64,000 nt of DNA from assembly GCA_030373505.1 (NCBI GenBank), contig JAUCYS010000007.1, positions 1 to 64,000 on the forward strand, written 5' to 3'. Of this stretch, positions 1-16,853 are shown piece after piece. The notes beneath the pieces are model-generated. The model searched no databases. It saw only the letters and a program-made list of their open reading frames with translations, and was not told where the DNA came from. This stretch comes from Parasphingorhabdus sp. (GTDB lineage Bacteria; Pseudomonadota; Alphaproteobacteria; Sphingomonadales; Sphingomonadaceae). The position numbers were made by a program, and so were the translations under genes. Numbering within the stretch: position 1 is the first letter of the stretch; each line of letters begins with the position of its first letter.

Positions 1-7
1 CCCTCAC

Positions 8-45
8 TGCCCCTTTCGGGGCATCTCTCCCGCCAGCGGGAGAGA
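8..45 (-). terminator. Tandem hairpins downstream of dnaQ
   Basis: There are two adjacent perfect inverted repeats. TGCCCC/GGGGCA (8-13 with 18-23) has a 4-base loop. TCTCTCCCGC/GCGGGAGAGA (24-33 with 36-45) has a 2-base gap. They lie just past the dnaQ stop, so they may end dnaQ transcription, but no T-run follows. They could also be a dispersed palindromic repeat of the genome. Confidence 0.45.
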
Positions 46-71
46 GTATTGGGTGGCAGCCGCCGTGCCCG

Positions 72-786
72 CTACTCCACCGCCACCGAATTCCACAAGG
101 CTTTGTCGCCGATCTTGGCGACCATTTTCGCGTGGGCTTCCAGTTCTTCCGGGTGAATGCGCGGGGCAAGCGGGCGAGGGCGGACAAGGGGGGGAAGTTT
201 GCGGACATTACCGTCGGCGTCATATTGGTCGCCATCGCCGGCATTGACGAGGCGGAACGCCGCCTGCCTGCCGCCCGACATCTCGATATAGACTTCCGCC
301 AGCAGTTCGGCATCGAGCAGCGCGCCGTGCTTGGTGCGGTGGGCATTGTCGATCGAATAGCGTTTGCAGAGTGCATCGAGGCTGTTGGGGCCCATGGGAT
401 GCTTGCGCCGCGCAAGCGCCAGCGTGTTCGAGGACCATGTCATCGGCGATCGGGCCCTTTCCAAGGCGGCCGAGCTCGACATTGATGAAGCCCATATCGA
501 AGGCAGCGTTGTGGGCGATCCAGCGCGCGCCCTCGAAAAAGGCGAGCAGATCATCGGCGATTTCCGAAAATCTGGGCTTGTCCTGAAGGAACTCGTCCGT
601 GATTCCATGCACCTGCAGAGCCTCGGGATGCACGGTCTTGCCATCGGCATTGATATAGACGTGGAAGGTGCGGCCGGTCGGAAAATGGTCAAGCAGTTCG
701 ACGGCGCCAATCTCGATGATCCGGTCGTCATTCTTGTCCATGCCGGTGGTTTCGGTATCGAAGATGATATCGCGCTTCGCCTTCAT
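72..786 (-). CDS. dnaQ: DNA polymerase III epsilon subunit, one frameshift
   Basis: 3'-5' proofreading exonuclease of the replicative polymerase (DEDD family). Exo I is FDTETTG with D10 and E12, Exo II is HNAAFD near residue 95, and Exo III is HRTKHGALLDAELL. The frame breaks near 427-428, where GAACACG on the coding strand should read GACACG. Removing one A restores VLDTLALARRKHP and a 237-residue protein, the normal family length. The start at 786 overlaps the coaE stop (TGATG). The sequence style is Hyphomicrobiales-like. An isolated extra base in a two-A run suggests sequencing error more than gene decay, because dnaQ is essential. Confidence 0.88.
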
Positions 787-1411
787 CAGATGCTGTCCCT
801 TGTGCTGTCTCTTGTCGCCCGCGGGCCTCGTCTTTTCAGATCGGCAATGATCGCGTCAACCGCCGCGCGCGCCGCGTCCATGCCATCGCCGGTGTCGACA
901 ATATAATCGGCCCGCGCGCGTTTTTCGCCATCGGGGAGTTGTTGTTTCAGGACCGTTTCGAGTTTTTTCCACTGTCATATCCGGCCGCGAGAGCACGCGT
1001 TCACGCTGAATAGCCGGATCGCAGGTGACGACGACGACATAATCGACATCGCGCTCGCCGCCGGTCTCGTAAAGCAGCGGCACGTCGAGCACCGCGATCA
1101 GCGCGCCGTCGGCCCGCGCCCGTTCCAGAAACGCCTGTCGCTCTTCGCGCACCAGCGGATGGACGATCGCCTCAAGCCGCTTGAAGTTTTCAGCCTTGCC
1201 GGCAAGCGCCTTGCTGAGCTTCTGCCGGTCGATCGCGCCATTGACCGCAACGCCTGGGAAGGCGGCTTCCACCGGCTCGACGGCGCACCCGCGATAAAGC
1301 CGGTGTACGGCGTCATCGGCGTTGAAGACCGGCATGCCTGCCTCGGCAAAAAAAGCCGGCCGTGGTCGATTTGCCCATGCCGATCGATCCGGTGAGGCCG
1401 AGCAATATCAT
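786..1411 (-). CDS. coaE: Dephospho-CoA kinase, two frameshifts
   Basis: Last step of CoA synthesis: phosphorylates the 3'-OH of dephospho-CoA. The P-loop [12 protein letters not shown] lies at the N-terminus, followed by VHRLY, IVHPLV and [10 protein letters not shown], all typical of CoaE. Two insertions break the frame. A 7-A run on the plus strand at about 1348-1354 should be 6, and a 6-A run on the coding strand near 965 should be 5. With both corrected the protein is 207 residues, standard for the family. The start ATG shares ATGA with the aroE stop, so the genes are probably translationally coupled. Both indels are in homopolymers, the signature of sequencing error. Confidence 0.88.
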
Positions 1412-2267
1412 GCCGTTTCTCCAAGGGTCGGCAAGGATTTCGGCCATCAGCCCGTCATCGACCTCGGGCTTTCGGCCGAACCATTTCTCGAAACCGGGCA
1501 CGGCCTGATAGAGCAGCATGCCGATTCCCTCGGCGGTTCTGAAACCCTGCTGTTTCGCCTGTTTCAGGATCGGGGTTTCGAGCGGCACATAGACGATATC
1601 GCGACGATCGCGTTTTCATGCAGCGGCGAGAAATCAAAATCGGGAACCGCACCACCCTTCATGCCGAGCGAGGTGGTGTTCACGAACAGGCCCGCGCCTT
1701 CCATCACCGCATCAAGATTGTCCATGTCATGGGCATGCACCCGGTCGCCGAGCCGGAAGGCGAGTTCGAGGCGCGCGCCAGCGTGCGGTTGACGATGTGG
1801 ACATGGGAAAAGCCGCGATTCTTCAGCGCCAGCACCACGGCGCTGGCACCGCCGCCGGCGCCCAGAACCACCGCGCGTTCCGCATAATCCCAGCCGGGAT
1901 GGAGCGCGTCGAGGCTGCTGGCAAAGCCGAAACCATCGGTATTGGTGGCGTGGATGCGGCCGTCTTCCACCCATAGCGTATTGGCGACGCCAAGCGTGGT
2001 GGCAAGCTCGTCGCGCTCGTCGGCAAGTTCGAAGGCGGCGGCCTTATAGGGCATGGTAACGTTGCAGCCGACATAGCCGGCCTCGCCGGAGCGCAACTTG
2101 TCCATGAATTCTCCGATTGCGCCGGGGGCGACATCCTGGCGGACATAGTCTCCATCGATGCCGTATTTCTTCAGCCAGTAGCCATGCACCAGCGGCGAGC
2201 GCGATTGATCCACCGGATGGCCGATAACGCAGGCCCTAGGCTTTGCCGTTTCACGTGAATCATTCAT
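1408..2267 (-). CDS. aroE: Shikimate dehydrogenase, three frameshifts
   Basis: NADPH-dependent reduction of 3-dehydroshikimate in aromatic amino acid synthesis. Visible motifs are [10 protein letters not shown] (substrate site), NVTMPYK (catalytic Lys), NTDGFGF and the GAGGGASAV nucleotide loop. Three indels interrupt it. One base is missing near 1773 (before LELAFRLGD), one is missing near 1603 (before IVYVPLETP), and one C is extra near 1425-1427. Corrected, the gene encodes 286 residues and stops at a TGA overlapping the coaE ATG. ATG at 2267 is preferred to TTG at 2270. The N-terminal DSRET is encoded by a degenerate parS (2247-2262). Confidence 0.87.
2247..2262. promoter_or_regulatory. 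Degenerate parS site inside aroE
   Basis: CGTTTCACGTGAATCA differs at two positions from the consensus TGTTTCACGTGAAACA. It encodes the SRET peptide of AroE. A real ParB site of the Hyphomicrobiales-like segment is plausible because it lies near the candidate origin. Confidence 0.5.
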
Positions 2268-2874
2268 CAATCGCTCCCAGTTTGCGCAAGGCCTTCAAAA
2301 GCGTCAGCATCGGCAGGCCCAGTATCGTGAAGAAATCGCCCTCGATTTTCGAGAAGAGTTGCACGCCCGGCCCTTCGAGCTGGTAAACGCCTGAGGAAAA
2401 AAGCACCTCATCCGGAAGCAGCGCGAGATAGTGATCGATCGCCGCCTCGCCGAGCGTACGCATGGTGAGCCGCACCGTCTCCGCTGCTTCGAAGACAATT
2501 TCGCCGTCTCTGGCGATCGCGAATGCGCTGATCAGCGAATGGCTCTGGCAGGAAAGACGCTTCAGATGATCGCGGGCCTCTTCCCGGCTTTCCGGCTTGG
2601 AATAGGGCCGGCCTTCGAATTCCATGACCTGGTCGCCGCCGATCACAAACGCATTTTCCGTCCGCGCCGAAACAGCGAGCGCCTTTTCGCGCGACAGCAG
2701 AGCCGCCAGGAAGGCGGGTGTTGCGCCCGTCTTCAGATAGGGCGCTTCGATGGCGCGCTCGTCGACATCGGGCTTTTTGGCGGTGAAGACGAGTCCGGCA
2801 TTTGCAAGCAGCGCCCGGCGCGAGGGACTGGTCGAGGCAAGCACGATAGCCGGTTTTTCAGGGGTAGCGCTCAT
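2260..2874 (-). CDS. maf: Maf-like nucleoside triphosphate pyrophosphatase
   Basis: Maf/Ham1-fold pyrophosphatase of 204 residues that hydrolyses non-canonical or bulk NTPs. The N-terminal LASTSPSRRALL contains the signature S-x-RR substrate loop. DERAIEAPYL and VIGGDQVM follow, the latter carrying conserved acidic residues. GGAGAGAC precedes the ATG at 2874. The stop overlaps the aroE start, in line with a ppsR-maf-aroE-coaE-dnaQ transcription unit. This is the only intact gene of this minus-strand set. Subfamily (YhdE or YceF type) was not resolved. Confidence 0.9.
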   Translation of the reverse strand: MSATPEKPAIVLASTSPSRRALLANAGLVFTAKKPDVDERAIEAPYLKTGATPAFLAALLSREKALAVSARTENAFVIGGDQVMEFEGRPYSKPESREEARDHLKRLSCQSHSLISAFAIARDGEIVFEAAETVRLTMRTLGEAAIDHYLALLPDEVLFSSGVYQLEGPGVQLFSKIEGDFFTILGLPMLTLLKALRKLGAIDE

Positions 2875-2893
2875 GTCTCTCCTTCAGGCCTTT

Positions 2894-3713
2894 TCAGCCG
2901 CGCTGGTGTTTCAGGGCGAGGATGGCGGCCGCCGTTTCCTCGATCGATCGGCGCGTGACATCGATGATCGGCCAGTCATTGCGGGCGGCCAGTGAACGGG
3001 CATATTTCAGCTCCTCGGCAATGACGGCGCGGTCGGTATAGTCGCTCTTGCCGTGATCGCCGCCAGCGCCGAATTCGCGATATTCGCGCACCTGCGAAAT
3101 CCGCCCCGTGGACGCGATCAGGCAGACGATCAGCGGCTTTTCAGCGCGGTAGAGACTGTCCGGTAGCGCGACCCCCGGCACGATCGGGATATTGGCCGCC
3201 TTGACGCCGCGATTGGCGAGATAGACGCATGTCGGCGTTTTCGATGTCCGGCTTATCCCCAGTATGACGATATCGGCTCGTCATAGGTCTCGGGCATCTG
3301 GCCGTCATCATGCTCCATGGTGAAATTCAGCGCCTCAATGCGGGCGAAATAATCCTCGTTGAGACTGTGCTGCGCCCCGACGCGGCGTTGCAGCGTGGTA
3401 CCGAGATAGGACTGGAAGACGGCGGCCACCGGCTCCAGCACATTGACGCTCGGCACGCCCATGTCGCGCACATTTCGTGGATCAGGGCGGAAAGCTCCTC
3501 GTTGACCACGGTATAAAGCACGATGCCGGGAGCATCATCGATCGCGCGCAGCACGGTGAGCAGCTGCTTGCGGCTTCTGATGAGCGGATAGACATGCTCG
3601 ATCGGCTCATGACCGCCGAACTGGGCGGATACCGCGCGGCCGGCAGAGATCAGCGTTTCGCCCGTCGAATCGGAGATCAGATGCAGGTGAAAGAAGTTTT
3701 TCCGGTTTTCCAC
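2894..3713 (-). CDS. ppsR: PEP synthase/PPDK regulatory kinase-phosphatase, two frameshifts
   Basis: DUF299/PDRP family: ADP-dependent kinase and Pi-dependent phosphorylase acting on PEP synthase or pyruvate phosphate dikinase. The N-terminus [11 protein letters not shown] and the C-terminal [14 protein letters not shown] are family hallmarks. The start is GTG at 3713. Two deletions break the frame: a C near 3468 (TGCGC for TGCCGC, before RDMGVPSVN) and a G near 3270 (GAGCC for GAGGCC, before [14 protein letters not shown]). Correction gives 273 residues. [20 protein letters not shown] is the Hyphomicrobiales form. The gene flanks the candidate oriC, as CC_0001 does in Caulobacter. Confidence 0.87.
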
Positions 3714-3798
3714 GATGTCCTTCGCCTGCTGTTCATAACATTGGAGAACCCGGGACGAAAAATCTCATCCGGTTTTCGCCTGTGGGCAGTGCGCGTGT

Positions 3799-3807
3799 TT
3801 ATCCACA
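3799..3807 (+). promoter_or_regulatory. DnaA box, perfect
   Basis: TTATCCACA matches the high-affinity DnaA consensus at all nine positions and lies in the ppsR-hemE gap. Confidence 0.6.
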
Positions 3808-3887
3808 TATGCTCAAATGACGAAAGCGTGAAATCCATCCTGTTGAAAACGGGGACAATGCCGACCGTCGCACCGCTTTTCCGTGGG

Positions 3888-3896
3888 TTTTACACA
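3888..3896 (+). promoter_or_regulatory. DnaA box, relaxed consensus
   Basis: TTTTACACA fits TTWTNCACA. It is 80 bases from the perfect box and on the same strand. Confidence 0.45.
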
Positions 3897-4121
3897 GGGT
3901 TTCCGCCTTGCGCCAGAGCCGGGAGGCGTTGAATCCATTGGGGTGAACAACGAAATCCCCGATCTGCCAAAATCACGGTTCCGAAAATCACCGATGCAAA
4001 ACTGGAAACCGGGGAAATGACTCATGACTGCGGCAAAAGCTTTAATCCTTGATCGTCACAGACTCTAAGAAATAAAAGAAACCGAACATAACAAGATTCA
4101 TTTAGAGGCGAGGCTGGGGAT

Positions 4122-5148
4122 ATGGCGAAAAGGGCACTGGAACGGGTGCTGGATGGCGAGACCGTAAACCCACCGCCGATCTGGCTGATGCGCCAGGCAG
4201 GACGCTATTTGCCGGAGTACCGCGCCGTGCGGGAAAAGGCCGGAGGCTTTCTGAACCTCTGTTACAATCCGGATTTCGCAACGGAAGTGACGCTGCAGCC
4301 GATCAGGCGATATGGCTTTGACGCGGCGATCCTGTTTTCCGACATTCTGGTCATTCCCGATGCGCTGAAGCGCAATGTCCGCTTTGAGGCCGGGGAAGGA
4401 CCGAGACTTGATCCGATCGACGCAGACGCCATCTTGGCTCTTGAAAAGAGCTATGACGCAGGCCGGCTCGATCCGGTTATCGAAGCGGTGAAGCGGATAC
4501 GCCGGGAGCTGCCGGAGGAAACCGCGCTGCTTGGCTTCTGCGGCGCGCCCTTTACAGTGGCGACCTATATGATTGCCGGGCGCGGCACGCCCGACCAGGC
4601 GCCGGCGCGGCTGTTTGCCTATCGCCACAGACGCGAATTTCTGAGGCTTCTCGACTATCTCGCCGATCTCTCGGCCGATTACCTGATCCGCCAGCTCGAG
4701 GCCGGCGCCGGCACGGTGCAGATATTCGACAGCTGGGCTGGTGTGCTCGGCGAGGAGGATTTTGCCGACTTTGCTGCGGCCACCCGTCGCGCGGATCGTT
4801 GCGAAGGTGCGGGCGAAGCATCCGGGCGCAAAGATCATCGCCTTTGCAAAGGGCGCTGGCCCCAATCTCGCAACCTACAGGGCAAAAACCGGCGCGGACG
4901 CGATCGGCCTCGACTGGACGGTGCCTCTTACCATCGCCAGAGACCTGCAGAAGGATGGGCCGGTGCAGGGCAATCTCGACCCGCTTTCCGTGGTCGCTGG
5001 CGGCCATGCGATGAAAAGCCGCGCCCTTGCCATTCTCGAAGCGCTTGCGGACGGACCGCTGATCTTCAATCTTGGCCACGGGATAACGCCCGAGGCCGAT
5101 CCGGAGCATGTGGCAGCACTTGTACGGCTCGTGAGAGGCGAAGAATAG
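4122..5148 (+). CDS. hemE: Uroporphyrinogen decarboxylase, one frameshift
   Basis: Converts uroporphyrinogen III to coproporphyrinogen III in heme synthesis. The N-terminal signature [17 protein letters not shown] (with the active-site Arg residues), [13 protein letters not shown] (catalytic Asp) and [13 protein letters not shown] are present, and FNLGHGI is near the C-terminus. One extra base near 4783-4787 (in GCCACCCG) shifts the frame. Correction joins FADFAAA to VARIVAKV and gives 341 residues. [17 protein letters not shown] follows the Hyphomicrobiales pattern. hemJ follows 25 bases later. Confidence 0.88.
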
Positions 5149-5173
5149 TCTTTTTCAAAAGGGAGGATGCCTG

Positions 5174-5703
5174 ATGGCAGATCGGAACAATGCCGGCAGC
5201 AAGGCGGCAGGACGGGCCATGACGGCGCTGCTGGTGTTTCTGGCGCTCTGTCTTGGCATCTACATCTTCGACCGCGATAATTTCTATCTCTGGGCCAAGG
5301 CAATCCACATCATGGCGGTGATCGCCTGGATGGCGGGCATGTTCTACATGCCGCGCCTGTTCGTCTATCACGCCGATACAACGCCCGGTTCGGAAAGCTC
5401 GGAAACCTTCAAGGTCATGGAATACCGGCTGATGAAGGCGATCATGAACCCGGCCATGATTCTGACATGGATCTTCGGTCTATATCTCGCCTGGGAGGGT
5501 TTCGGTTTTCCGGCGGTTGGCTGCATGTCAAGATTCTGGCGGTTTTTGTGCTATCCGGGGTGCATGGCTATTTCAGCAGGGCGATGAAGGATTTTGCGGC
5601 CGACAAGCGTACAAAGAGCGCGAAACACTGGCGGATCGTGAATGAGGCGCCGACCGGTTTGATGATCATCATCGTCATAATGGTGGTTTTGAAGCCGTTT
5701 TAA
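5174..5703 (+). CDS. hemJ: Protoporphyrinogen IX oxidase HemJ, one frameshift
   Basis: Inner-membrane, heme-containing oxidase of protoporphyrinogen IX. It has several hydrophobic helices and the conserved KAIHIMAVIAWMAGMFYMPR and ETFKVME-RL-K-IMNPAM stretches; it ends in VVLKPF. One T is missing in the TTTT run at about 5507-5510. Restoring five T reads GFGFSGGWLHVK and gives 176 residues. The spacer after hemE suggests one operon. The sequence resembles rhizobial rather than sphingomonad HemJ, which supports a foreign or chimeric origin for this end of the window. Confidence 0.86.
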
Positions 5704-5902: not shown

Positions 5903-7168
5903 ATGTCTCAAATGAAGCTTCAGGAACTGAAGAGTAAAACGCCTACCGATCTCCTTGCCTTTGCCGAATCTGTCGAAGTCGAGGGCGCGAGCACGTTGCG
6001 CAAACAGGAACTCATGTTTGCCATTCTCAAAATGCTTGCGGCCCAGGACGTCGAGATCATCGGCGAGGGCGTCGTCGAGGTCCTTCAGGACGGTTTCGGG
6101 TTCCTGCGTTCGGCCAATGCCAATTATCTTCCCGGCCCGGACGATATCTATATTTCACCCTCCCAGATCCGCCGCTTCGCGCTGAAGACCGGCGACACGG
6201 TTGAAGGGCCGATCCGCGGACCGAAGGAAGGCGAGCGCTATTTCGCGCTGCTCAAGGTCAACACCATCAATTCCGACGATCCGGAAAAGATCCGTCACAA
6301 GGTCCATTTCGACAATCTGACGCCGCTCTATCCCGATGAGCGCTTCAAGATGGAGCTCGACAACCCGACCTCCAAGGACAATTCCGCCCGCGTCATCGAT
6401 CTGGTCGCGCCGCTCGGCAAGGGCCAGCGCGGCCTGATCGTCGCCCCGCCGCGCACCGGCAAGACCGTGCTCTTGCAGAACATCGCCCATTCGATCACCG
6501 CCAATCACCCCGAATGTTTCCTGATCGTGCTGTTGATCGACGAACGGCCTGAGGAAGTGACGGACATGCAGCGTTCGGTGAAGGGCGAAGTGGTCTCATC
6601 CACCTTCGACGAACCGGCCGTACGCCACGTGCAAGTCGCTGAAATGGTTATAGAAAAGGCAAAGCGCCTGGTGGAGCACGGCCGCGATGTCGTGATTCTG
6701 CTCGATAGTATCACCCGTCTCGGCCGCGCCTATAACACGGTCGTTCCTTCCTCCGGCAAGGTGCTGACCGGCGGCGTCGACGCCAATGCGCTGCAGCGCC
6801 CGAAGCGCTTCTTTGGTGCTGCGCGCAATATCGAGGAGGGCGGTTCGCTGACGATCATCGCAACGGCGCTGATCGATACCGGCAGCCGCATGGACGAGGT
6901 GATCTTCGAGGAATTCAAGGGCACCGGCAACTCCGAAATCGTGCTCGACCGCAAGGTTTCCGACAAGCGCATCTTCCCGGCGCTCGACGTCGGCAAGTCC
7001 GGGACCCGCAAGGAAGAATTGCTGGTCGAGGACGAGAAGCTCAAGAAAATGTGGGTGCTGCGCCGCATCCTCATGCAGATGGGCACGATCGACGCGATGG
7101 AATTCCTGCTCGACAAGATGAAGGACAGCAAGTCCAACGACGATTTCTTCGACAGTATGAATCAATAG
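5903..7168 (+). CDS. rho: Transcription termination factor Rho (chimeric)
   Basis: Hexameric RNA-DNA helicase, 421 residues from ATG at 5903 ([18 protein letters not shown]). DGFGFLRS is the RNA-binding cold-shock fold, [15 protein letters not shown] the Walker [21 protein letters not shown] and [13 protein letters not shown] the ATPase core, and [10 protein letters not shown] the R-loop. The frame is intact. Residues 1 to about 260 read like Hyphomicrobiales Rho ([33 protein letters not shown]). The end ([36 protein letters not shown]) reads like Sphingomonadales Rho. The switch lies between about 6.68 and 6.99 kb, in the most conserved part of the gene. Confidence 0.95.
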
Positions 7169-7186: not shown

Positions 7187-7480
7187 ATGATTGTCGAACA
7201 TGCGATCCTGCAGGTCCGACCGGGGCAGTCAGAGGCATTCGTGGTCGCGCTGGCAAAAGCCAGGCCGCTGGTTGCCTGCCAGCCGGGCTTTCAGTCGATC
7301 GAGGTCAGGCCATCTGCGGAGGACCCGGCACGCTATCTGTTGCTGATCGAGTGGGACCGGATTGAATCGCACCGCCACGGCTTTCGGCGGTCGCCGGAAT
7401 ATCGGCAATGGAGCGCCTTGCTTCACCAATTTTATGACCCTATGCCGGTTATAAGCTATTATGGACGATCGGTTTTGTGA
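7187..7480 (+). CDS. Antibiotic biosynthesis monooxygenase (ABM) domain protein
   Basis: A 97-residue single-domain dimeric alpha/beta-barrel (ABM/YgiN-like) protein. It begins MIVEHAILQVRPGQSEAF and contains the typical CQPGFQSIEVRPSAEDPARYLLLIEWD strand-turn-strand, written here in two adjoining parts (CQPGFQSIEVRPS, then AEDPARYLLLIEW). Such proteins include heme-degrading and quinone monooxygenases, but many are of unknown role. Its TGA overlaps the TerC gene ATG (TGATG at 7478-7482), so the two are probably co-translated. Function beyond the fold cannot be assigned. Confidence 0.8.
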   Translation: MIVEHAILQVRPGQSEAFVVALAKARPLVACQPGFQSIEVRPSAEDPARYLLLIEWDRIESHRHGFRRSPEYRQWSALLHQFYDPMPVISYYGRSVL

Positions 7481-8205
7481 TGATTGAACTGCTTTCTATT
7501 CTCTCTGCAGCGAGTGGACTTGGCTCCTTTTCCGATATCTGGGGCGCGATCGTCCATGATTTCTCCAATATCGGCTCGCCGGCGGCGCTGGCGGCCTTCG
7601 GGCAGGTGGTGCTGATCGATCTGGTTTTTGCGGCCGACAATGCCATTGTTGTCGGCGCACTGGCCGGCGGCTTGCCGGCGGACCAGCGGCGCAAGGTGAT
7701 TCTGATCGGGATTGCCGCGGCACTGGTGCTGAGGATCATATTTGCCCTGATCGTGGTGCAGCTGTTGCAGATCGTCGGGCTGGTCCTGGCTGGCGGCCTG
7801 TTGCTGCTCTGGGTCGGCTGGAATTTCTATCGCGAGATTTTCCACGAGGGAGAATCCGCAGGGTCCGACGAGATCGTTGGCGACGAACATAGCGGCGTCA
7901 AATCGTCCAAGACCTTCTGGGGCGCTGTCTGGGGCGTGACCGCGGCCGACGTGTCGATGAGCCTCGACAATGTTCTGGGCGTGGCCGGCGCCGCGCGCGA
8001 GCATCCCGGCATTCTGGTCATCGGCCTGTTGCTGTCGGTGGCACTGATGGGGCTGGCCGCCAATGTCATCGCGAAATATATCGAGCGCTACAAGTGGATC
8101 GCCTATCTGGGTCTGGCGGTGATCGTCTATGTCGCCGGCAAGATGATCTACACCGGCTTGCTGGGTGATGAGCAAACGATCGGCGTGCTGACGCTGTTCG
8201 GGTGA
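7480..8205 (+). CDS. TerC/Alx-family integral membrane protein
   Basis: A 241-residue protein with about seven hydrophobic helices. It has the acidic intramembrane motifs LVFAADNAIVVG near the N-terminus and DVSMSLDNVLGVAGAA in the middle, as in TerC/Alx/YjbE proteins linked to Mn2+ export and metal homeostasis. ATG at 7480 is chosen over GTG at 7477. Upstream and downstream genes overlap it by one to four bases, forming a tight three-gene unit. I saw no yybP-ykoY riboswitch upstream. The exact substrate is not shown by the sequence. Confidence 0.88.
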   Translation: MIELLSILSAASGLGSFSDIWGAIVHDFSNIGSPAALAAFGQVVLIDLVFAADNAIVVGALAGGLPADQRRKVILIGIAAALVLRIIFALIVVQLLQIVGLVLAGGLLLLWVGWNFYREIFHEGESAGSDEIVGDEHSGVKSSKTFWGAVWGVTAADVSMSLDNVLGVAGAAREHPGILVIGLLLSVALMGLAANVIAKYIERYKWIAYLGLAVIVYVAGKMIYTGLLGDEQTIGVLTLFG

Positions 8206-8738
8206 TTCTGACCGCCGGAAATGTTGCCGTCATTACCGGAGGACCAGGAGCCGGAAAAACGACCCTTTGTGAACAGCTGGCCGGAAAAGGAATTTCCATA
8301 GGTTCCGAGTCCGGAAGAGCCGTGTTGAGCAGGAACGGTGGTCATGAACTGCGTCAGCAGGACCCTCTTGCTTATGCGCTTGAAATTCTGAATCTGGATA
8401 TCGACAATTTCAAAGCCGCGCATTCCGGTTCCGAGCGATGGCTGTTCGACAGGGGCTTTGCGGATAATGCCGGATTTCTGGATTTGATGGGCCTGCCGAT
8501 AGCCGATGAAGTTGATCAGGCCTGTCGCGCCTATCGCTATCAGGGTCCGGTTTTTATCGCGCCGCCGTGGCGGGATATCTATCAGCAGGATGATGACCGG
8601 ATACAGGACTGGCGGGAAGCCAAGGCTACCTATTTTGCGGTAAAGGCGGCCTGGGAACGCTATGGCTATGATCCGGTTACACTGCCCAAAATGAGCGTTG
8701 AAGAGCGCGCCTCATTCGTCCTGGATCGCCTGGCCTAA
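8202..8738 (+). CDS. P-loop AAA-type NTPase of unknown role
   Basis: A 178-residue protein starting at GTG 8202, overlapping the TerC stop. The Walker A GGPGAGKTT is at residues 13-21, and WLFDRGFADNAGF gives a possible Walker B or lid. The layout resembles the small AAA_28 or NadR-like predicted kinase families, which bind ATP and phosphorylate small molecules, but the substrate is unknown. It ends convergently three bases into the stop of the next minus-strand gene (8735-8738), so transcription of the two units runs head-on. Confidence 0.75.
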   Translation: MILTAGNVAVITGGPGAGKTTLCEQLAGKGISIGSESGRAVLSRNGGHELRQQDPLAYALEILNLDIDNFKAAHSGSERWLFDRGFADNAGFLDLMGLPIADEVDQACRAYRYQGPVFIAPPWRDIYQQDDDRIQDWREAKATYFAVKAAWERYGYDPVTLPKMSVEERASFVLDRLA

Positions 8739-9136
8739 GCCTTCATCGTCTCCAGCATCTTGCCCATTTCTTCCCAGACCTTGTTGATCGCCTTCAGCGG
8801 CCGGACCATCACCTTGAAATCCTGAATCTTGCCCTCCTCGTTCCAGCTGATGATATCGACGCCGTTGACATGGATATCGTCCAGCTCGAGCTCGAATTCC
8901 AGCATCGCCATATTGGCCTCGTCATCGACAATTTCGCGCACATAGCGGAAACTATCATTGCCGAGCACCATGTCAGCGGCGCTGAGATAGGCCAAGACGA
9001 TGGGCTTGCCGGCCTGGGGTGTGTGGACCACAGGCGAGTGGAACACCGCGTCTTCGGCAAGCTGGTCGCTGAGTCCGGACTGGCCCTTGTTCTCGATATG
9101 GTGGTGCCAGACCTTCAGATTGTCGCGGGCGCTCAC
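8735..9136 (-). CDS. SnoaL/NTF2-like domain protein
   Basis: A 133-residue cone-shaped NTF2-like protein. The pattern LAEDAVFHSPVV ... GKPIVLAYL ... DIISWNEEGKIQDFKVMVRPLKA is typical of SnoaL-like ketosteroid-isomerase-fold families. The start is GTG at 9136, overlapping the TGA of the dienelactone hydrolase gene upstream, so both belong to one transcript. The substrate is unknown. Proteins of this fold act as isomerases, cyclases or binding proteins. Confidence 0.78.
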   Translation of the reverse strand: MSARDNLKVWHHHIENKGQSGLSDQLAEDAVFHSPVVHTPQAGKPIVLAYLSAADMVLGNDSFRYVREIVDDEANMAMLEFELELDDIHVNGVDIISWNEEGKIQDFKVMVRPLKAINKVWEEMGKMLETMKA

Positions 9137-9831
9137 ACCAGATGTTCCTCGAAAAAGGCTTCGGTGCGCCGGTCGGCGAGGCTGGCGGCGGTTTCGTTCC
9201 GGCGTTCGCCGAACTCGGCGGCAAAGCCGTGGTCCAGACCTTCATAATCGTGCAGCGTGACCTTGGGATGGTCATCCAGTCCGGCGTGCATCGCGGCCTG
9301 GGTTTCGGGGGAGACAAAGCCGTCGGCGGTCGGGATATGCAGCATCACCTCATGCGAAATGGCGTGTTTCTCGTCCAGCAGACCGTCGATGCCCACGCCA
9401 TAATAGCCGACGGAGGCCCTGATGTCGGTGCGGCAGGCGGTCATAAAGGCGAGGCGGCCGCCGAGACAATAGCCGACGCAGCCGACCTTGTGGCTGCCGA
9501 TCGCCTGTTGGGCAAAGTGAATCGTTGCCTCGATATCGCGAATCCCCTGATCCTGATTGAATTTCCCCATCAGGTCGAGCGCGGTCTGGAACTCTTCCTC
9601 GACATCGGCATCAAGATCGGTTCCCTCGTTGATCCGCCAGTAGAGATCCGGCGCCAGCGCCAGATAGCCAAGGCTCGCCCAATGGTCGCATTTGGCCTTG
9701 ATGCCCTTGTTAACGCCAAAGATTTCCTGAATCACGATGATCGCAGCGGTTGCCTCGCCGTCCGGCCTTGCCACATAGCAGGGGAATTCCGCGTCTGCTT
9801 CGAGTGTTTTTACCTGTTCCATAGCGCCCAT
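9133..9831 (-). CDS. Dienelactone hydrolase family protein
   Basis: Alpha/beta hydrolase of 232 residues. VGCVGYCLGGRLAF carries the nucleophile Cys in the G-x-C-x-G elbow typical of dienelactone hydrolases, IQEIFGVN the conserved Glu, and GLDHGFA the catalytic His. ATG at 9831 is chosen because AAGGAG lies 8 bases upstream; the reading frame stays open to 9855. It is co-transcribed with the SnoaL-like gene. The family opens dienelactones in chlorocatechol degradation, but many members are general carboxyl hydrolases and nothing nearby indicates aromatic catabolism. Confidence 0.87.
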   Translation of the reverse strand: MGAMEQVKTLEADAEFPCYVARPDGEATAAIIVIQEIFGVNKGIKAKCDHWASLGYLALAPDLYWRINEGTDLDADVEEEFQTALDLMGKFNQDQGIRDIEATIHFAQQAIGSHKVGCVGYCLGGRLAFMTACRTDIRASVGYYGVGIDGLLDEKHAISHEVMLHIPTADGFVSPETQAAMHAGLDDHPKVTLHDYEGLDHGFAAEFGERRNETAASLADRRTEAFFEEHLV

Positions 9832-9964
9832 TTTCCAGCTCCTTTGTATCATCACTTGATTCTTTGGTCACAATATCCCCATATCAGATGCAGGCAAGGT
9901 GGAACATCAGCCTGTTGGGTGAGGGAGGGAACTTCGCTGCAACGGTTAAACAGAGGAAGACATA

Positions 9965-10234
9965 ATGAAAGTCACCGTTGAACTGGATTGCACGCCGGAA
10001 GAGGCCCGCCGACTGATCGGCCTGCCCGATGTGGCGCAACTGAACGAACGCTATGTGGACGAAATGTCGAAATTTCTGCAGGGTGCCAATTCGGTCGAGC
10101 AGCTCCAGAATTTCACCAAGATCATCGCGCCGATGGGCGAGGCGGGTCTGAAAATGTTTTCGTCCTTTGTGACCGGCGCGATGGGCGCTGCGGGCGGCGG
10201 AAAATCGTCGTCTGCCAAGAAAAAGTCCGACTAG
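9965..10234 (+). CDS. Small conserved protein upstream of mnmE
   Basis: An 89-residue soluble protein with no known function. It starts MKVTVELDCTPEEARRLIGLPD after GAGGAAG, has a mainly helical middle (YVDEMSKFLQGANSVEQLQNF) and ends in a Gly/Ala segment with a Lys/Ser-rich tail. I recall similar short proteins in Sphingomonadales annotated DUF6489. It lies 18 bases before mnmE, so it is probably expressed with the tRNA-modification genes. Confidence 0.75.
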   Translation: MKVTVELDCTPEEARRLIGLPDVAQLNERYVDEMSKFLQGANSVEQLQNFTKIIAPMGEAGLKMFSSFVTGAMGAAGGGKSSSAKKKSD

Positions 10235-10252
10235 CTACCGTTTCCAGCCATA

Positions 10253-11548
10253 ATGACCGCTGATGACACTATTTTCGCCCTGTCGAGCGGACAGCCGCCG
10301 GCGGCGATCGGAATCCTGCGGATCAGCGGTCCGGAGGCGGGAAAGGCCCTCGCTGGCCTGACCGGTGGTTTACCAGAACCGCGTGTAGCTACCCTGCATA
10401 ATATAACCAATATGGTTAATGGAGAGGTGCTGGACCAGGCCCTTTGTCTCTGGTTTCCGGGGCCGAACAGCGCCACCGGAGAGGATCTGGCCGAAATCCA
10501 TTGTCACGGCGGGCGAGCGGTTATTCGGGCGATCGAGGGCGCGCTCGAGCAGATCAGTGGCTTGCGCCGGGCGGAGCCGGGGGAATTTACTCGCCGGGCC
10601 TTTACCAACGGCAGGATCGATCTGGCGGAAGCGGAAGGTCTGTCCGATCTGCTGTTTGCCGAAACCGAGCTGCAGCGCAAGGCGGCGGTGCGCAATGCCG
10701 GCGGCGCGCTGTCGCGCAAGGTCGAAGACTGGCAGACCCGCATCTTGCAACTGTCGGCGCAGGTTGAAGCCGAACTGGATTTTTCCGACGAGGATGATGT
10801 CACCCCGGCGCAGGCCGGTAGCGTCCGCCAGGCGGCGGAATCTCTGGTCGGGGAAATGAGCGGTCTGCTGGCCCGGCCGCGTGCCGAAAAGCTGCGCGAC
10901 GGAATACGGGTGGTGCTCGGGGGGCCGCCGAACAGCGGCAAGTCCACCTTGCTCAATGCGCTGGTCGAACGGGAAGCAGCGATCGTTTCCGATATCGCGG
11001 GGACCACCCGCGATGTAATCGAGGTGCCGATTGCGCTCGGCGGTGTTCCCTTTCTCTTTATCGATACGGCTGGCGTGCGGGAAAGCGGAGCGGAGATCAT
11101 CGAGCAGATCGGGATCGACCGGGCTCGCCAGCAATTTGCCAGCGCCGACATCATAGTATGGCTCGGCGAGGAAGGGCAGGGACCGCGTTCCGACAATCTG
11201 GTCGAGGTCGGGTCGCGCAGTGATCACGCCGATCATGAGCCGAAGGGCGAGGGATCGTTCACGCTGTCGCCGGTCAGCGGTGAGGGGATGGATGCGCTCG
11301 TCGACTTTCTGATCGGGAAGGCGAAAGATATATTGCCGGACAGCGATCAGGTCAGCATCAACGCACGGCAGGCCGACCATTTGGCCGCCGCCTGCGATAG
11401 CCTGGCGGCGATGATGGACGAGACCGATTATCTGATTGTGGCGGAGCATCTGCGAATGGCGCGCAAGGCGCTGGATGCGATTACCGGCAGAGCGAGCACC
11501 GAGGATATGCTCGACGGGCTGTTCGGGAAATTCTGTATCGGCAAATGA
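10253..11548 (+). CDS. mnmE: tRNA uridine-5-carboxymethylaminomethyl modification GTPase
   Basis: With MnmG it installs the cmnm5 group on U34 of tRNAs. The 431-residue protein has the N-terminal formyl-THF-binding domain (IFALSSGQPPAAIGILRISG), a G domain with G1 GGPPNSGKST and G3 DTAG, the IAGTTRDVIEVPI K-loop region, and the C-terminal FCIGK with the required Cys. The G4 NKxD motif is not clear (GSRSD at about residue 321 is the nearest), a divergence also common in related sphingomonads. A parS site immediately follows the stop. Confidence 0.95.
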   Translation: MTADDTIFALSSGQPPAAIGILRISGPEAGKALAGLTGGLPEPRVATLHNITNMVNGEVLDQALCLWFPGPNSATGEDLAEIHCHGGRAVIRAIEGALEQISGLRRAEPGEFTRRAFTNGRIDLAEAEGLSDLLFAETELQRKAAVRNAGGALSRKVEDWQTRILQLSAQVEAELDFSDEDDVTPAQAGSVRQAAESLVGEMSGLLARPRAEKLRDGIRVVLGGPPNSGKSTLLNALVEREAAIVSDIAGTTRDVIEVPIALGGVPFLFIDTAGVRESGAEIIEQIGIDRARQQFASADIIVWLGEEGQGPRSDNLVEVGSRSDHADHEPKGEGSFTLSPVSGEGMDALVDFLIGKAKDILPDSDQVSINARQADHLAAACDSLAAMMDETDYLIVAEHLRMARKALDAITGRASTEDMLDGLFGKFCIGK

Positions 11549-11549
11549 T

Positions 11550-11565
11550 TGTTCCACGTGGAACA
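11550..11565. promoter_or_regulatory. parS site 1 (mnmE-mnmG gap)
   Basis: TGTTCCACGTGGAACA is a perfect 16-base palindrome matching TGTTNCACGTGNAACA. It is two bases past the mnmE stop and 2.6 kb from parA. Confidence 0.88.
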
Positions 11566-11621
11566 GATGACCGGTGCGGTAGATTTTGACCTGCAAAGCC
11601 GCTTGGGCTATGGGCCGCGGC

Positions 11622-13484
11622 ATGATGCGGAAATTTGATATCATTGTGGTTGGCGGAGGCCATGCCGGTTGCGAGGCCGCTGCCGTGGCTGCGCGCATGG
11701 GCGTGTCGACCGCTCTGGTCAGCTTTACCCGCGACAGTATCGGGGCGATGTCCTGCAACCCGGCTATCGGCGGGCTTGGCAAGGGCCATCTGGTCCGCGA
11801 GGTCGATGCCTTTGACGGTCTGATCGGAAGGGCGGCAGATGCCGCCGCGATCCATTATCGCATGCTCAATCTGTCGAAGGGCACGGCGGTGCAGGGGCCG
11901 CGGGTTCAGGCTGACCGGAAACTCTACAAGGCTGCCATCCACCGGATGCTCGATGCGCAGGATGGCCTGACCATCATCGAAGGGGAGGTCGCTAGCCTGA
12001 TTCTGTCCGGCTCCGCCGTCTCCGGTATCCGCATGGCCGATGGTTCGGAAATTCACGCCGAGGCGGTGATTCTGGCGACCGGCACCTTTCTGAACGGCAA
12101 ATTGTTTCGGGGTGAGGAAACGCTCGCCGGCGGACGGACCGGGGAGGCGGCATCGGTCTCTTTGGGGCAGCAGATTCGCGACGCGGGTCTGCCCATCGCT
12201 CGTCTGAAAACCGGAACGCCGCCGCGGCTGGATGGGCGGACGATCGACTGGGCCGCTTTGCCCGAACAGCCATCGGATGAGGATGGGTGGACGATGTCGC
12301 CGCTGTCAAACGGACGACAGGTACCGCAGACTTTTTGCGCGGTCAGCCGGACCAGTTCCGAAACCCATGAGATTATCCGGGCGTCGCTCGATCGCTCGCC
12401 GCTGTTCAGCGGTGCCATCGATGCGCAGGGGCCGCGCTATTGTCCGTCCATCGAAGACAAGATTCACCGCTTTGCCGATCGCGATTCGCATCAGGTCTTT
12501 CTCGAGCCGGAAGGTCTCGGCAGCAATCTCGTCTATCCCAACGGCATTAGCACATCGCTGCCCGCCGATGTCCAGCTCGCCTTCGTTCGCACCATGGACG
12601 GCCTGGCCAATGCCAAGATACTGGTTCCGGGCTATGCGGTCGAATATGATCATATCGATCCCAGGGCTCTGGACCGGTCACTCCGCGTTCGCGATCTTGA
12701 AGGGCTTTATTGCGCCGGGCAGATCAACGGCACGACCGGCTATGAAGAAGCAGCGGCGCAGGGACTGATCGCCGGGCTGGGTGCCGCTTGCGCCGTGCAG
12801 GGGAGAGAGGCTCCGCTGCTTGATCGGGGCACGAGCTATATGGCGGTGATGATCGACGATCTGGTGCTGCAGGGTGTCACGGAGCCTTACCGGATGCTGA
12901 CCGCTCGGGCGGAATATCGTCTGAGGCTGCGGGCAGACAATGCGTCCACCCGGCTGACGCCAATTGCGCTCGAAACCGGATGCGTCTCGGCGGAACGGGC
13001 CGACTGGTTTTCCCGTCGGCAAGCGTCCCGTGCTGCCATCCTGGAAGTGCTCGACCGAAGCTGTTCTACAGATGATCTGGCAAAGGCTGGTGTCGAGGTG
13101 CGCCGCGACGGAACCCGGCAAAGCCTGTTCGCTTGGCTTCGCTTCCCCAATATCTCGATCCGTTCGCTGGAAGGACTGGAAGCATGTTTGCGTGATGGCG
13201 ATGCCGAACTGCTGGCAGAGATCGAGGAAGACGCACGCTATGCACCCTATCTCGAGCGGCAGGAATCGGAATTGCGCGACTTGCGCGCCAACGAGCAGAT
13301 CGCGCTCGGCACCGATATCGACTATGCTGGAATAGCCGGTCTTTCCAATGAAATGGTCGAACGGCTGACCAGGGCCCGGCCGGAAACACTGGCGGCGGCA
13401 TCCCGTATTAGGGGGATTACACCGGCCGCGCTGGCCGCGATTCTCGTTCATGCCAGACGCCAGAACCGGAATCTGGCCGCATGA
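11622..13484 (+). CDS. mnmG: tRNA uridine-5-carboxymethylaminomethyl modification enzyme MnmG
   Basis: FAD-dependent partner of MnmE in U34 modification, about 620 residues. [16 protein letters not shown] is the FAD-binding GxGxx[24 protein letters not shown] and [15 protein letters not shown] are family signatures, and [19 protein letters not shown] binds the flavin C-terminally. ATG at 11622 or 11625 fits the family N-terminus; no strong ribosome site is seen, and ATG at 11586 would add 12 residues. Its TGA overlaps the rsmG ATG (ATGA at 13481-13484). Confidence 0.94.
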
Positions 13485-14098
13485 CCGAAGACGAGGCGCA
13501 GGCCTGGCTGCGCGCCGAATATGATGTTTCACGTGAAACATGGCAGCGGCTAGAGCTGTTCATAGCGTTGCTGCGCGACGAGATGCAGCGGCAGAATCTG
13601 ATTTCCAAAGCCAGCGCAGACAGTCTGTGGGGACGGCATATCGTCGATAGCGCGCAATTGTTGCGCTATGCACCGAAACCCGAGGCTGGCAAAGTCTGGC
13701 TGGATCTCGGGACAGGGGCCGGATTTCCCGGTATCGTGATTGCGATACTTGGCAACTACCAGGTGCAGATGGTTGAATCCCGCAAACGGCGATGCGAATT
13801 TCTCAATCATGTCATCGACCAGACTGGTATCGGCGATCATGCGATGGTGCTGGCAGACCGGCTCGAGAATATCGAATGCTTCTCCGCCGACGTGATCAGC
13901 GCCCGGGCTTTCGCTCCGCTGGATCGGCTCATCGCACTTTCGCACCGCTTTTCCACAAAAAATACGGTTTGGCTCTTACCTAAAGGCAAAAATGCGGTAA
14001 GGGAGTTGAAAGGCCTGTCACCAAAACGGCAAAAAATGTTTCACGTGGAACATAGTTTGACCGATCCGGACGCCGGAATCTTGGTGGGCAAGGGCTAG
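13481..14098 (+). CDS. rsmG: 16S rRNA (guanine527-N7)-methyltransferase
   Basis: SAM-dependent methylation of G527 in 16S rRNA, 205 residues. [17 protein letters not shown] is the SAM-binding motif [15 protein letters not shown] motif II, and [12 protein letters not shown] a family block. Two parS sites fall inside the coding sequence: one encodes DVSRET near the N-terminus and the other MFHVEH near the C-terminus. The protein sequence here is therefore partly dictated by the segregation site. Translation is coupled to mnmG. Confidence 0.93.
13525..13540. promoter_or_regulatory. parS site 2 (inside rsmG 5' end)
   Basis: TGTTTCACGTGAAACA is a perfect match to the bacterial parS consensus and a perfect palindrome. 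It encodes VSRET of RsmG. Confidence 0.93.
14037..14052. promoter_or_regulatory. parS site 3 (inside rsmG 3' end)
   Basis: TGTTTCACGTGGAACA matches TGTTNCACGTGNAACA with one asymmetric position. It encodes FHVEH of RsmG and lies 74 bases before parA. Confidence 0.88.
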
Positions 14099-14125
14099 AA
14101 ACCGGTTTTTTAGGGTAGACCTGCC

Positions 14126-14908
14126 ATGGTTCGTATCGCAATAGCCAATCAGAAGGGCGGTGTGGGCAAGACGACCACAGCGATAAATATGGCCACCGCG
14201 CTGGCCGCAAGCGGGTGGAAAGTACTGCTGATCGATCTCGATCCGCAGGGCAATGCCTCCACTGGCCTCGGATTGTCGCAGGGCGACCGCGTCAACAGCA
14301 GCTACGATCTGCTGATCAATGATGTTTCGCTCTCCGACTGTATCAACCAGACCAAGGTCCCGGGCCTGGAAATCGTACCCGCCACCGTCGATCTGTCGGG
14401 TGCGGAGGTCGAGCTGGTCGAATTCGAGGAGCGCACTCACCGCCTGAAAAAGGCGCTGGATGCCGCTGACAACAGCCGCTGGGATATCATTCTGATCGAC
14501 TGCCCGCCGTCGCTGGGCTTGCTCACGCTCAATGCCATGGTCGCGGTTGAATCCCTGCTGGTGCCGCTGCAATGCGAATTTTTCGCGCTGGAAGGGCTGA
14601 GCCAGCTGTTGCAGACCGTCGAGCGCATTCGGGCCCGTTTCAACCGGCAGCTTTCGGTGATGGGCGTGGTCCTCACCATGTATGACCGGCGCAACAAGCT
14701 GACCGAGCAGGTATCGGATGATGTCCGGGCCTGTCTGGGCGATGTTGTCTTTGATACGGTGATTCCGCGCAACGTCCGTCTGTCCGAAGCGCCGAGTCAC
14801 GGGCTTCCGGCGCTGATCTATGATCATCGCTGCAGCGGGTCGGTTGCCTATATCGATCTCGCGCGCGAGCTGATCGGGCGTCTGCCCGACCGCAAGGTGG
14901 CTGCCTGA
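14126..14908 (+). CDS. parA: Chromosome partitioning ATPase ParA
   Basis: Soj/ParA-type deviant Walker ATPase of 260 residues that binds DNA non-specifically and moves ParB-parS complexes. ANQKGGVGKTTTAINMA holds the signature Lys residues, LLIDLDPQGNAST Walker A', and ILIDCPPSLGLLTLNA Walker B. PRNVRLSEAPSHG is the typical chromosomal-type C-terminal block. There is no N-terminal HTH, so this is a chromosomal rather than P1-plasmid form. The stop base overlaps the parB ATG at 14908. Confidence 0.95.
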   Translation: MVRIAIANQKGGVGKTTTAINMATALAASGWKVLLIDLDPQGNASTGLGLSQGDRVNSSYDLLINDVSLSDCINQTKVPGLEIVPATVDLSGAEVELVEFEERTHRLKKALDAADNSRWDIILIDCPPSLGLLTLNAMVAVESLLVPLQCEFFALEGLSQLLQTVERIRARFNRQLSVMGVVLTMYDRRNKLTEQVSDDVRACLGDVVFDTVIPRNVRLSEAPSHGLPALIYDHRCSGSVAYIDLARELIGRLPDRKVAA

Positions 14909-15870
14909 TGGCCGATGAGGAGATCGCGAAGGAGACGGCCAAGCGCCCGGCCAAGCGGGTGACCGGATTGGGCAGGGGGCTGAACAGCCTGTTCGGCGAT
15001 ATCCAGCGCGAAGAGCCGATTGTCACCGGCGAGACGGCCGAGGAAAGCAGCGCTGCCACGGGGACGATCATCGAGGGTCTGCGCTCGATCGCGGTTTCGG
15101 ATATCCGGCCCAATCCCGACCAGCCGCGCCAGACGTTCGATTCCGATGCGCTGGATGAGCTGGCCAGCAGCATGCGCCAGCGCGGTGTGATCCAGCCGAT
15201 CGTCGTTCGTCCGCATGGCAAGAATTTCCAGATTGTCGCCGGTGAACGGCGCTGGCGCGCCGCACAGCGTGCTCGCCTGCACCAGATCCCGGCCGTCGTC
15301 CGCAATCTCAACGACGAAGAAACGCTCGAAATCGCGATCGTCGAAAATGTCCAGCGCAAGGACCTCAATGCCATCGAAGAAGCAGAGGCCTATGCGCGGC
15401 TGAGTCAGGATTTCGGCCATAGCCAGGCGCGACTGGCCGAGATTGTGGGCAAATCCCGCAGTCATATTGCCAATCTGATCCGCTTGCTGGAATTGCCGGC
15501 CAGCGTGAAGGCGCTGGTGGTCGATGACAAGCTCACCATGGGTCATGCCCGCGCACTGATCAATGCCCCCAATGCCGAAGAGCTTGCGCCGCAGATCGCC
15601 CAAAAGGGATTGTCGGTGCGAGACGTCGAACGACTGGTCCGCAAAGCCCTGGCCGGTACCAAAGCGCCGTCGACCAGGAAAGCGGGCGCGTCGCTTTCCG
15701 ACAATGATGCGGATATCCAGGCACTGGAAACCCATCTCGGCGATCTGCTGGGCCTGAATGTCAAGATCCGGCCGGACGGGCAGGGGCAGGGCGGCACCAT
15801 GGCGATTGAATATGGCAATCTCGACCAGCTTGACCTGATTTGCCAGCGGCTGACCGGCGAACATATCTAG
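14908..15870 (+). CDS. parB: Chromosome partitioning CTPase ParB
   Basis: ParB/Spo0J of 320 residues. The N-terminal GLGRGLNSLFGD is the ParA-stimulating region. PNPDQPRQTFD starts the CTPase fold, followed by GERRWRA and ENVQRKDLN (CTP-binding C-motifs). GKSRSHIANLIRLLELP is the parS-reading HTH, and a C-terminal dimerisation region ends the protein. It is expected to load on the parS sites at 11550, 13525 and 14037 and spread. It ends the mnmE-mnmG-rsmG-parA-parB run. Confidence 0.95.
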   Translation: MADEEIAKETAKRPAKRVTGLGRGLNSLFGDIQREEPIVTGETAEESSAATGTIIEGLRSIAVSDIRPNPDQPRQTFDSDALDELASSMRQRGVIQPIVVRPHGKNFQIVAGERRWRAAQRARLHQIPAVVRNLNDEETLEIAIVENVQRKDLNAIEEAEAYARLSQDFGHSQARLAEIVGKSRSHIANLIRLLELPASVKALVVDDKLTMGHARALINAPNAEELAPQIAQKGLSVRDVERLVRKALAGTKAPSTRKAGASLSDNDADIQALETHLGDLLGLNVKIRPDGQGQGGTMAIEYGNLDQLDLICQRLTGEHI

Positions 15871-15910
15871 AGTTCCGGCGTCCCTCGGGCGTCGAATCTT
15901 CCGGAACTGG
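15871..15910 (+). terminator. Weak hairpin after parB
   Basis: AGTTCCGG (15871-15878) pairs with CCGGAACT (15901-15908) across a 22-base loop that can itself partly fold. No T-run follows, so a Rho-independent role is uncertain. Confidence 0.3.
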
Positions 15911-15977
15911 CCCTAAAGCGCGCGGCACCCTCCGGTTTTACCCCAATTTTTATTATATATATCAGTTACTTAACAGG

Positions 15978-15992
15978 TTAATTCCAAATTAA
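15978..15992. promoter_or_regulatory. CtrA box upstream of the pilin gene
   Basis: TTAATTCCAAATTAA is a perfect TTAA-N7-TTAA CtrA site, extended to the palindrome GGTTAAT-TCCAA-ATTAACC. A further TTAA lies 8 bases upstream. It sits in a strongly AT-rich tract (about 15945-16000), some 145 bases before the pilin ATG. No other perfect site was noticed in the window. Confidence 0.6.
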
Positions 15993-16135
15993 CCATAACT
16001 TGCAGCAAAGGCTTATTCTTTCCACAGGATAAGAGCGGCTGAATGCTGACACAGGCGATAGCCGACCAGTGGGTTTGGTCCGACTACACCGCATGTGTCC
16101 GTTCAACCACGCAAAAAAAATAGGGACCAGTAACT

Positions 16136-16627
16136 ATGAAGAAATTTACCAAGGCCGTTTTGGCCTCGTCTGTGCTTGTGGCTTCGCTGATGAGCGCAAC
16201 AGCGGCAAGAGCCGATACAGCGACCGCAGATGCTCGCGCCAATATCCTGCAACAGGTTACCGTCAATTCCGATGGCAGCGCACTCGATTTCGGCACGATC
16301 GTTACCGGCGCGGCTGCGTCGACCGTGTCGGTCAGCGCTGGCGGCCGTTCCTGCGGTGCCGGCCTCGTCTGCTCGGGCACCACGTCCGCGGCCGGATTTG
16401 ATGTCACCGGCACGGCTGGCGAAACCGTGAGCGTTGCTTCGGATCCGACCGTTACGCTGACCAGCGGCACCAACAGCATGACCGCCAATATTGTCGCCAG
16501 CGCTTCGACGCTGACGCTGACCGGCGGCACCGGCTCTTTCAACGTCGGCGGACTGCTCAACGTGGGTGCCAACCAGGCCGACGGCGCCTATGAAGGCAGC
16601 TTCAACGTGACAGTCAACTATAACTAA
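16136..16627 (+). CDS. DUF4402-type fimbrial subunit (predicted major pilin)
   Basis: Secreted 163-residue protein. The signal peptide (MKKFTKAVLASSVLVASLMS, cleavage after ARA or ADT) is followed by a Thr/Ser/Gly/Val-rich all-beta sequence. Two Cys eight apart (SCGAGLVC) probably form a disulfide. ALDFGTIV near residue 55 and a C-terminal GAYEGSFNVTVNY strand match DUF4402 proteins, whose last strand resembles donor strands of chaperone-usher pilins. It is followed by a terminator and then chaperone and usher-like genes, so it is probably the main fibre subunit. Confidence 0.82.
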   Translation: MKKFTKAVLASSVLVASLMSATAARADTATADARANILQQVTVNSDGSALDFGTIVTGAAASTVSVSAGGRSCGAGLVCSGTTSAAGFDVTGTAGETVSVASDPTVTLTSGTNSMTANIVASASTLTLTGGTGSFNVGGLLNVGANQADGAYEGSFNVTVNYN

Positions 16628-16682
16628 AGACTCCGTCGGGGGCCGACAGGTCGCCAGACAGAAACAGAATCACCCGTTCGCG

Positions 16683-16704: not shown

Positions 16705-16853
16705 CGTGCCCGCGGCTTTGACCGCCGCTAGCCGATATCCGCAATCCCCTGTGGTTAGCCCTTTGGTAACCATCTTTCTTCATAAGCACAGCCGGGAAGG
16801 CGGAAAAAGAACGCCTAATCCGTGCAATATGACCAGTAAAGACGGAGACTATA

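Follow-up and report, generated by a model that had tools for sequence, protein, structure and literature searches.

Gene content at the left end of contig C22

The window analyzed here is a stretch of 64,000 bases that forms the start of contig C22 (180,829 bases); window base 1 is C22 base 1. The source bin comprises 28 contigs with a total of 3.13 Mb; its listed completeness is 87.9% and its listed contamination 0.15%. We compared the rho gene of the window with 24 same-genus loci, 19 Hyphomicrobiales loci (L032 to L050), and 9 named Sphingomonadales loci. The latter two sets were assembled from locus titles and taxonomic background (L044 bears only the title "Bacterium"), and comparisons with the grouped loci point to a Sphingomonadaceae-like genus for the bin. 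Among the 31 other members of this genus, 27 have a full-length match to rho, two have a partial rho (G008 and G029), and two have no rho match (G019 and G021); 24 were fetched for the identity, motif, exact-run, and junction comparisons. A scan for diagnostic sites in rho used 12 of these 24 loci together with two Martelella references. The features of the window are as follows.

1..63, no strand: repeat arm and flank, a dispersed repeat of Martelella genomes (genus-wide matches, inverted repeat in L224, match to plasmid pMM593)
72..5700, no strand: Martelella-derived gene block (identity to M. mediterranea DSM 17316; indels; Pfam)
within 72..5700, minus strand: dnaQ, broken (Pfam RNase_T)
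within 72..5700, minus strand: coaE, broken (Pfam CoaE)
within 72..5700, minus strand: aroE, broken (Pfam Shikimate_dh_N)
2260-2874, minus strand: maf, intact (Pfam Maf)
within 72..5700, minus strand: ppsR (Kinase-PPPase), broken (Pfam Kinase-PPPase)
4122-5145, plus strand: hemE, broken (Pfam URO-D)
5174-5700, plus strand: hemJ/UPF0093, broken (Pfam UPF0093)
5903..6889, plus strand: rho residues 1-329, Martelella derived (identity to L212, diagnostic sites, tree)
6890..6930, plus strand: junction interval (last donor-type site, 6889; first recipient-type site thereafter, 6931)
6931..7168, plus strand: rho residues 343-421 and stop, assigned to the bin's own genus (identity, diagnostic sites, tree)
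7187..64000, no strand: native sequence with ABM monooxygenase, TerC, AAA, SnoaL-like, dienelactone-hydrolase-like, mnmE, mnmG, rsmG, parA, and parB genes, and onward (gene matches to G005 and G010; annotated to about 16 kb)

The names dnaQ, ppsR, and hemJ, in part taken from a preliminary description of this DNA, are presumptive, as are the names of the right-hand genes from AAA through parB, i.e., all but ABM monooxygenase and TerC.

The surroundings of rho are ordinary conserved alphaproteobacterial synteny: the order dnaQ-coaE-aroE-maf-ppsR-hemE-hemJ-rho is identical in six same-genus and three Hyphomicrobiales loci. Pieces of the left-hand genes have 47 to 72% amino acid identity to the Hyphomicrobiales locus L032 and 34 to 57% to the genus member G010, in which one aroE piece has no match. 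On the right-hand side, nine of ten genes match the genus member G005 at 72 to 98% amino acid identity; the remaining one, the AAA gene, has no match in G005 and is 64% identical to its counterpart in G010. Five of these ten genes match L032, at 35 to 59%. The amino acid identities thus bear out the preliminary description, which had assigned the genes left of rho (HemJ, PpsR, HemE, AroE, and DnaQ) to the affinity of the first part of Rho and those right of it to the affinity of the second part.

The two parts of rho and the switch between them

rho is a single intact open reading frame of 421 amino acids (5903-7168, plus strand), and its Rho domains all scored above the Pfam cutoff (Rho_N, PF07498; Rho_RNA_bind, PF07497; ATP-synt_ab, PF00006). 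Identity at the DNA level reverses along the gene. Across 5903-6544, the best Hyphomicrobiales locus has an identity of 0.846, compared to 0.723 for the best of the 24 same-genus loci and 0.75 for the closest among 5 further loci from the same order as the bin. The two groups tie across 6545-6931 (Hyphomicrobiales, 0.871; genus, 0.860), and the genus leads across 6932-7165 (0.936 versus 0.784). Identity to the Martelella locus L212 is 96.9% over 5903-6889 and 77.9% over 6931-7152. Trees of the two parts also disagree: the N-terminal part groups with L212 (support, 0.987) within Martelella (support, 1.0), and the C-terminal part falls inside the clade of the bin's genus (support, 0.977). The halves of rho therefore match different genera, and the proposal that the gene is a chimera of Hyphomicrobiales and Sphingomonadales sequences is upheld.

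We then looked at the protein motifs quoted in the preliminary description. LVEHGRD occurs in 16 of the 19 Hyphomicrobiales loci, with LVEHKHD at the same place in all 24 genus loci. KAITDNHPE is likewise present in 24 of 24 genus loci; Hyphomicrobiales carry forms like the 10-residue counterpart in the window. Toward the C terminus, the 19-residue motif of the window is found in 23 of the 24 genus loci, and DDFFDSMNQ is found in all of them. The 15-residue N-terminal motif is present in rho but is not one of the four commonest forms in any group; a single Hyphomicrobiales locus of the 19 has the nearest form listed, and genus loci show LVSMAEELGVEGAST-like forms. Hence, all five quoted motifs are present and four sort cleanly by group, the exception being the 15-residue motif, which has a form of its own. 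KIFVLRRIL and FFDSMNT had been given as rhizobial forms. KIFVLRRIL, with ILAPMGTTDAIE, occurs in 4 of the 19 Hyphomicrobiales loci; it is also present in all three Martelella references, but at least two of these end in FFESMNT rather than FFDSMNT.

Diagnostic sites locate the switch. Up to 6889, 143 sites in rho match the donor only, 9 match the recipient only (5 firm and 4 weak), and 6 match neither. From 6931 onward, 47 match the recipient only (45 firm and 2 weak), 1 matches the donor only (7066), and 1 matches neither. No site between 6889 and 6931 is diagnostic in this set of 12 genus and two Martelella sequences. The switch had correctly been placed in 6.68 to 6.99 kb, and it is now narrowed to about 6890-6930 (residues about 330 to 342). 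It follows that the Hyphomicrobiales part spans about 329 residues and the other part about 79; the sizes first given for these parts were about 260 and about 60.

Within 6890-6930, every base of the window has a counterpart in one or more of the 3 Martelella sequences and in one or more of the 24 genus sequences. L212 is identical to the window here, and each of the 24 genus sequences differs from it at 2 to 9 sites. The window base at 6889 is shared with 2 of the 24 and that at 6865 with 1 of the 24. Across the 24 × 3 reference pairs, exact runs in rho reach at most 53 bp; this maximum, at 6878-6930, is between L213 and L019, indicating that such an exact run can occur at the place of the junction. 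Among the 21 pairs with an exact run of at least 30 bp, the longest run is at the junction in 3 and elsewhere in 18. We give the 53-bp run less weight as support for a long exact overlap because the window differs from L213 and from L019 at two sites within it and because none of the 24 genus sequences matches the window throughout 6890-6930. Any stretch shared exactly by donor and recipient at the join is putative.

Contigs of two other draft genomes of the genus end or start inside rho, at residues 207, 275, and 334 (G008, contigs C4 and C206, loci L120 and L121; G029, contig C100, locus L122). These broken contigs suggest that assemblers tend to break within the conserved core of rho.

Source and integrity of the left-hand block

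Earlier searches covered the order of G060 (397 genomes, 173 of them without a score) and its family (a sample of 151 genomes from a larger set), with best matches of 85% for the left part of rho and about 70% for hemE-hemJ in full. The notion that the left-hand block has no close source was rejected once the genus of G536, the best match of the family search, was searched (13 genomes): for window 1-7152, identity was 94% to G609, 93% to G610 (51-7152), and 88% to G614. Over 64-6889, it is 95.0% to M. mediterranea DSM 17316 (G609:C1), 94.2% to G610, and 88.4% to G614; the value for 64-5902 is 94.7% to DSM 17316. Beyond rho, identity to DSM 17316 drops to about 40%. We take G609 to be M. mediterranea DSM 17316 because it contains a stretch of that strain's plasmid pMM593 at 100% identity and the same coordinates. 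The dnaQ-to-rho segment of DSM 17316 is collinear with the window over the whole block at 95.0% identity but lacks the ten indels of the window and has no break called by the frame model (L212). The divergence of about 5% suggests that the block would come from a different species or lineage.

The contig begins in a repeat. Window 1-31 is one arm of a 31-nucleotide inverted repeat in L224, with base 1 forming the inner end of that arm. Short matches to about window 1-45 to 1-80 are dispersed through most of the 13 G536-genus genomes, with at least 9 to 27 matches per genome in 9 of them, main locus included. M. mediterranea pMM593 gave the sole match among plasmid records, and the 1-63 repeat does not recur elsewhere in the bin. 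The repeat is palindromic and intergenic (window 1-63; L224 12607-12715) and occurs at many sites in most Martelella genomes searched. We presume that it resembles the rhizobial RIME element.

Ten single-base indels lie in the first 5.5 kb of the window (at about 0.4 to 5.5 kb), none of which is present in the three Martelella references. They break dnaQ, coaE, aroE, ppsR, hemE, and hemJ but leave maf and rho intact. In the comparison with L214, the position of one indel is displaced by 7 bases; that of another moves by 1. Reference-specific indels were left uncounted (near the repeat, at 803 and 5150 for L214 only, and at 5821 for L213 only, among others). Frame changes number 9 in 6.75 kb on the left and, on the right, 1 in 41.4 kb compared to G010 and 4 in 43.3 kb compared to G005. 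The left-hand open reading frames at 90-903 and 2873-3929 are antisense to dnaQ and ppsR, and their frame changes mark the same indels; the tenth indel falls between the aroE and coaE frames used, so that no frame change was counted for it. The four right-hand changes relative to G005 are in three open reading frames (24006-24309; 28638-30141, also changed relative to G010; and 45419-46935), which may be spurious reading frames, gene remodeling, or single errors. A codon-based frame model made no call in these three.

This frame model made 4 calls in window 1-6000 and none in 6001-64000, in 55 other contig ends (330 kb), or in ten control loci. Two controls, L118 and L119, are from C22 itself (L119 overlaps its right end), a third, L212, overlaps L224 and L225, and the training set took in maf and rho of the window. 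Since the model finds 4 of the 10 known indels, it is conservative, and zero calls elsewhere mean a low rate rather than none. By this model, frame breaks are not general to contig ends, and the foreign block alone among the stretches tested carries predicted breaks. Indels, frame changes, and the frame model all indicate that sequence quality differs between the two sides of the join.

A comparison of composition left and right, suggested at the outset as a check, separated the contig ends but was weakly informative. Of 56 contig ends, the left end of C22 alone scores donor-like in a Markov analysis. Four of the six 1-kb tiles in 1-6000 lean toward the donor and two toward the recipient; the tiles at 4001-6000 and the inner 3 kb of the left end of C22 lean toward the recipient, and composition alone is therefore insufficient to settle origin.

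Could the split in rho be chance variation of a slowly evolving protein, or could contig ends in general be error rich or foreign looking? rho is highly conserved and its middle (6545-6931) is uninformative, as this explanation would have it. However, none of the 55 other ends has a frame-break call, albeit from a conservative model, none scores donor-like by composition, and identity to a single genome is 95% across 6.8 kb. We therefore assign this explanation no probability.

Origin of the join

We searched the bin for the sequence that the foreign block displaces. It has no second copy of the N-terminal part of rho, and no native copy of the left-hand genes was found (best 40 of 96 candidates scored). 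The 14.4- to 26.3-kb stretch of G010 has no match in the bin (best 40 of 58 and best 40 of 78 candidates scored), and part of it is conserved in five of five genus loci tested. The next stretch of G010 matches contig C7 at 90% (best 40 of 78 candidates scored), and C7 begins at G010 26.27 kb; about 18 kb of native sequence thus separates C22 from C7. On the far side of the gap, about 57 bases (C7:1-57; L149) do not align to G010 and are possibly a second join error; the gene at the start of C7 is presumably leuS. Martelella-like DNA is present at the rho locus in none of the 31 other genus members, two of which have no match at all, and the junction was not found in any of them. Their matches of at least 200 bp are at most 75% identical, and shorter ones reach 96% over 26 bp.

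Judged from sequence comparison, the two sides of C22 come from different, specific genome sources. We conclude that C22 is very probably a chimeric assembly, with the first ~6.9 kb from Martelella and the rest from the bin's own Sphingomonadaceae-like genome, and that the hybrid gene is most likely a database error rather than biology. We propose that a Martelella species was present in the same DNA sample and that a low share of reads from it built the first ~6.9 kb of C22. With a gene order common to both orders, the assembler would have crossed between the genomes through a short near-identical stretch of rho, and the foreign path would have ended at the dispersed Martelella repeat. An assembler would be expected to leave a foreign path that breaks off at such a donor repeat. 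Low depth of the Martelella reads would have caused the indels, and the join itself would have arisen during assembly, not from a chimeric DNA molecule in the library. The jump of an assembler from one organism to another in conserved rho, as first suspected, is strongly supported by the single source, the start at a repeat, the frame breaks, and the ~18-kb gap. Four points count against an assembly chimera: the foreign block is not uniformly bad, since the Martelella half of rho and maf are intact; the rho frame is kept across the join, as in real homologous recombination; every genus sequence has 2 to 9 differences from the window at 6890-6930; and native copies missing from an 87.9%-complete bin also fit a real replacement.

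The alternative first offered was recombination, for which we found no support beyond the contig itself. Here, a Martelella dnaQ-to-rho segment, at least 6.9 kb and origin proximal, would have replaced the Sphingomonadaceae copy by a crossover in rho, an inter-order event that we consider very improbable. The shared gene order, the join in near-identical DNA, the in-frame rho, and the lack of native copies of the replaced genes in the bin are all consistent with it. Against it, the ten indels break six of the replaced genes, for which the bin yielded no other copy, although the indels may be sequencing errors. Several of these genes are essential, and with broken genes and no other copy found in the bin, the contig as written would code for no working set. 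Moreover, the frame model calls breaks in the foreign block alone, the contig stops at a donor repeat with no return to native DNA, the ~18 kb of native sequence not found exceeds what the block replaces, and the event is seen in none of the 31 other genus members. A version in which the hybrid Rho works and the indels are sequencing errors due to thin coverage at the end of the contig is just as doubtful; recombination would need such errors to be confined to the foreign block, together with an unseen second junction. Homologous replacement of core genes resembles C22 in having an in-frame crossover in a conserved gene with synteny conserved on either side. It differs in that C22 has no visible second crossover, its genes are broken, and no second genome has the event.

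A chimeric DNA molecule or read from library preparation or amplification could also have joined the genomes, with the assembler following it. This would explain the foreign block, its position at a contig end, and, if few reads supported it, the errors, and it requires no long exact shared stretch. Ligation, however, would join unrelated places, whereas the switch is at orthologous rho bases and the left end is at a donor repeat; a template switch during amplification would still fit. We judge a library origin to be highly unlikely.

A chimeric assembly of Martelella and the bin's genome has parallels. In chimeric interspecies contigs of metagenome assemblies (PMC8172020), two organisms are joined, as in C22, in mutually similar sequence beside a gap in the native assembly. 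The join in C22 differs in that it falls in one protein-coding core gene, within a short part of it, with the result that the encoded Rho looks intact.

If the junction were a true recombination, essential and highly connected core genes would be swappable from one order to another, a very surprising result. Taken as an artifact, it means that a bin listed at 0.15% contamination holds about 6.9 kb from another order. With no native copies beside the foreign ones, marker-gene checks can miss such contamination. We recommend flagging it as a probable misassembly and regarding window 1-6930 as unfit as evidence on the bin's organism. Protein databases would take in a hybrid Rho, and a false transfer would show up in trees of rho, hemE, coaE, aroE, maf, and dnaQ built from this bin.
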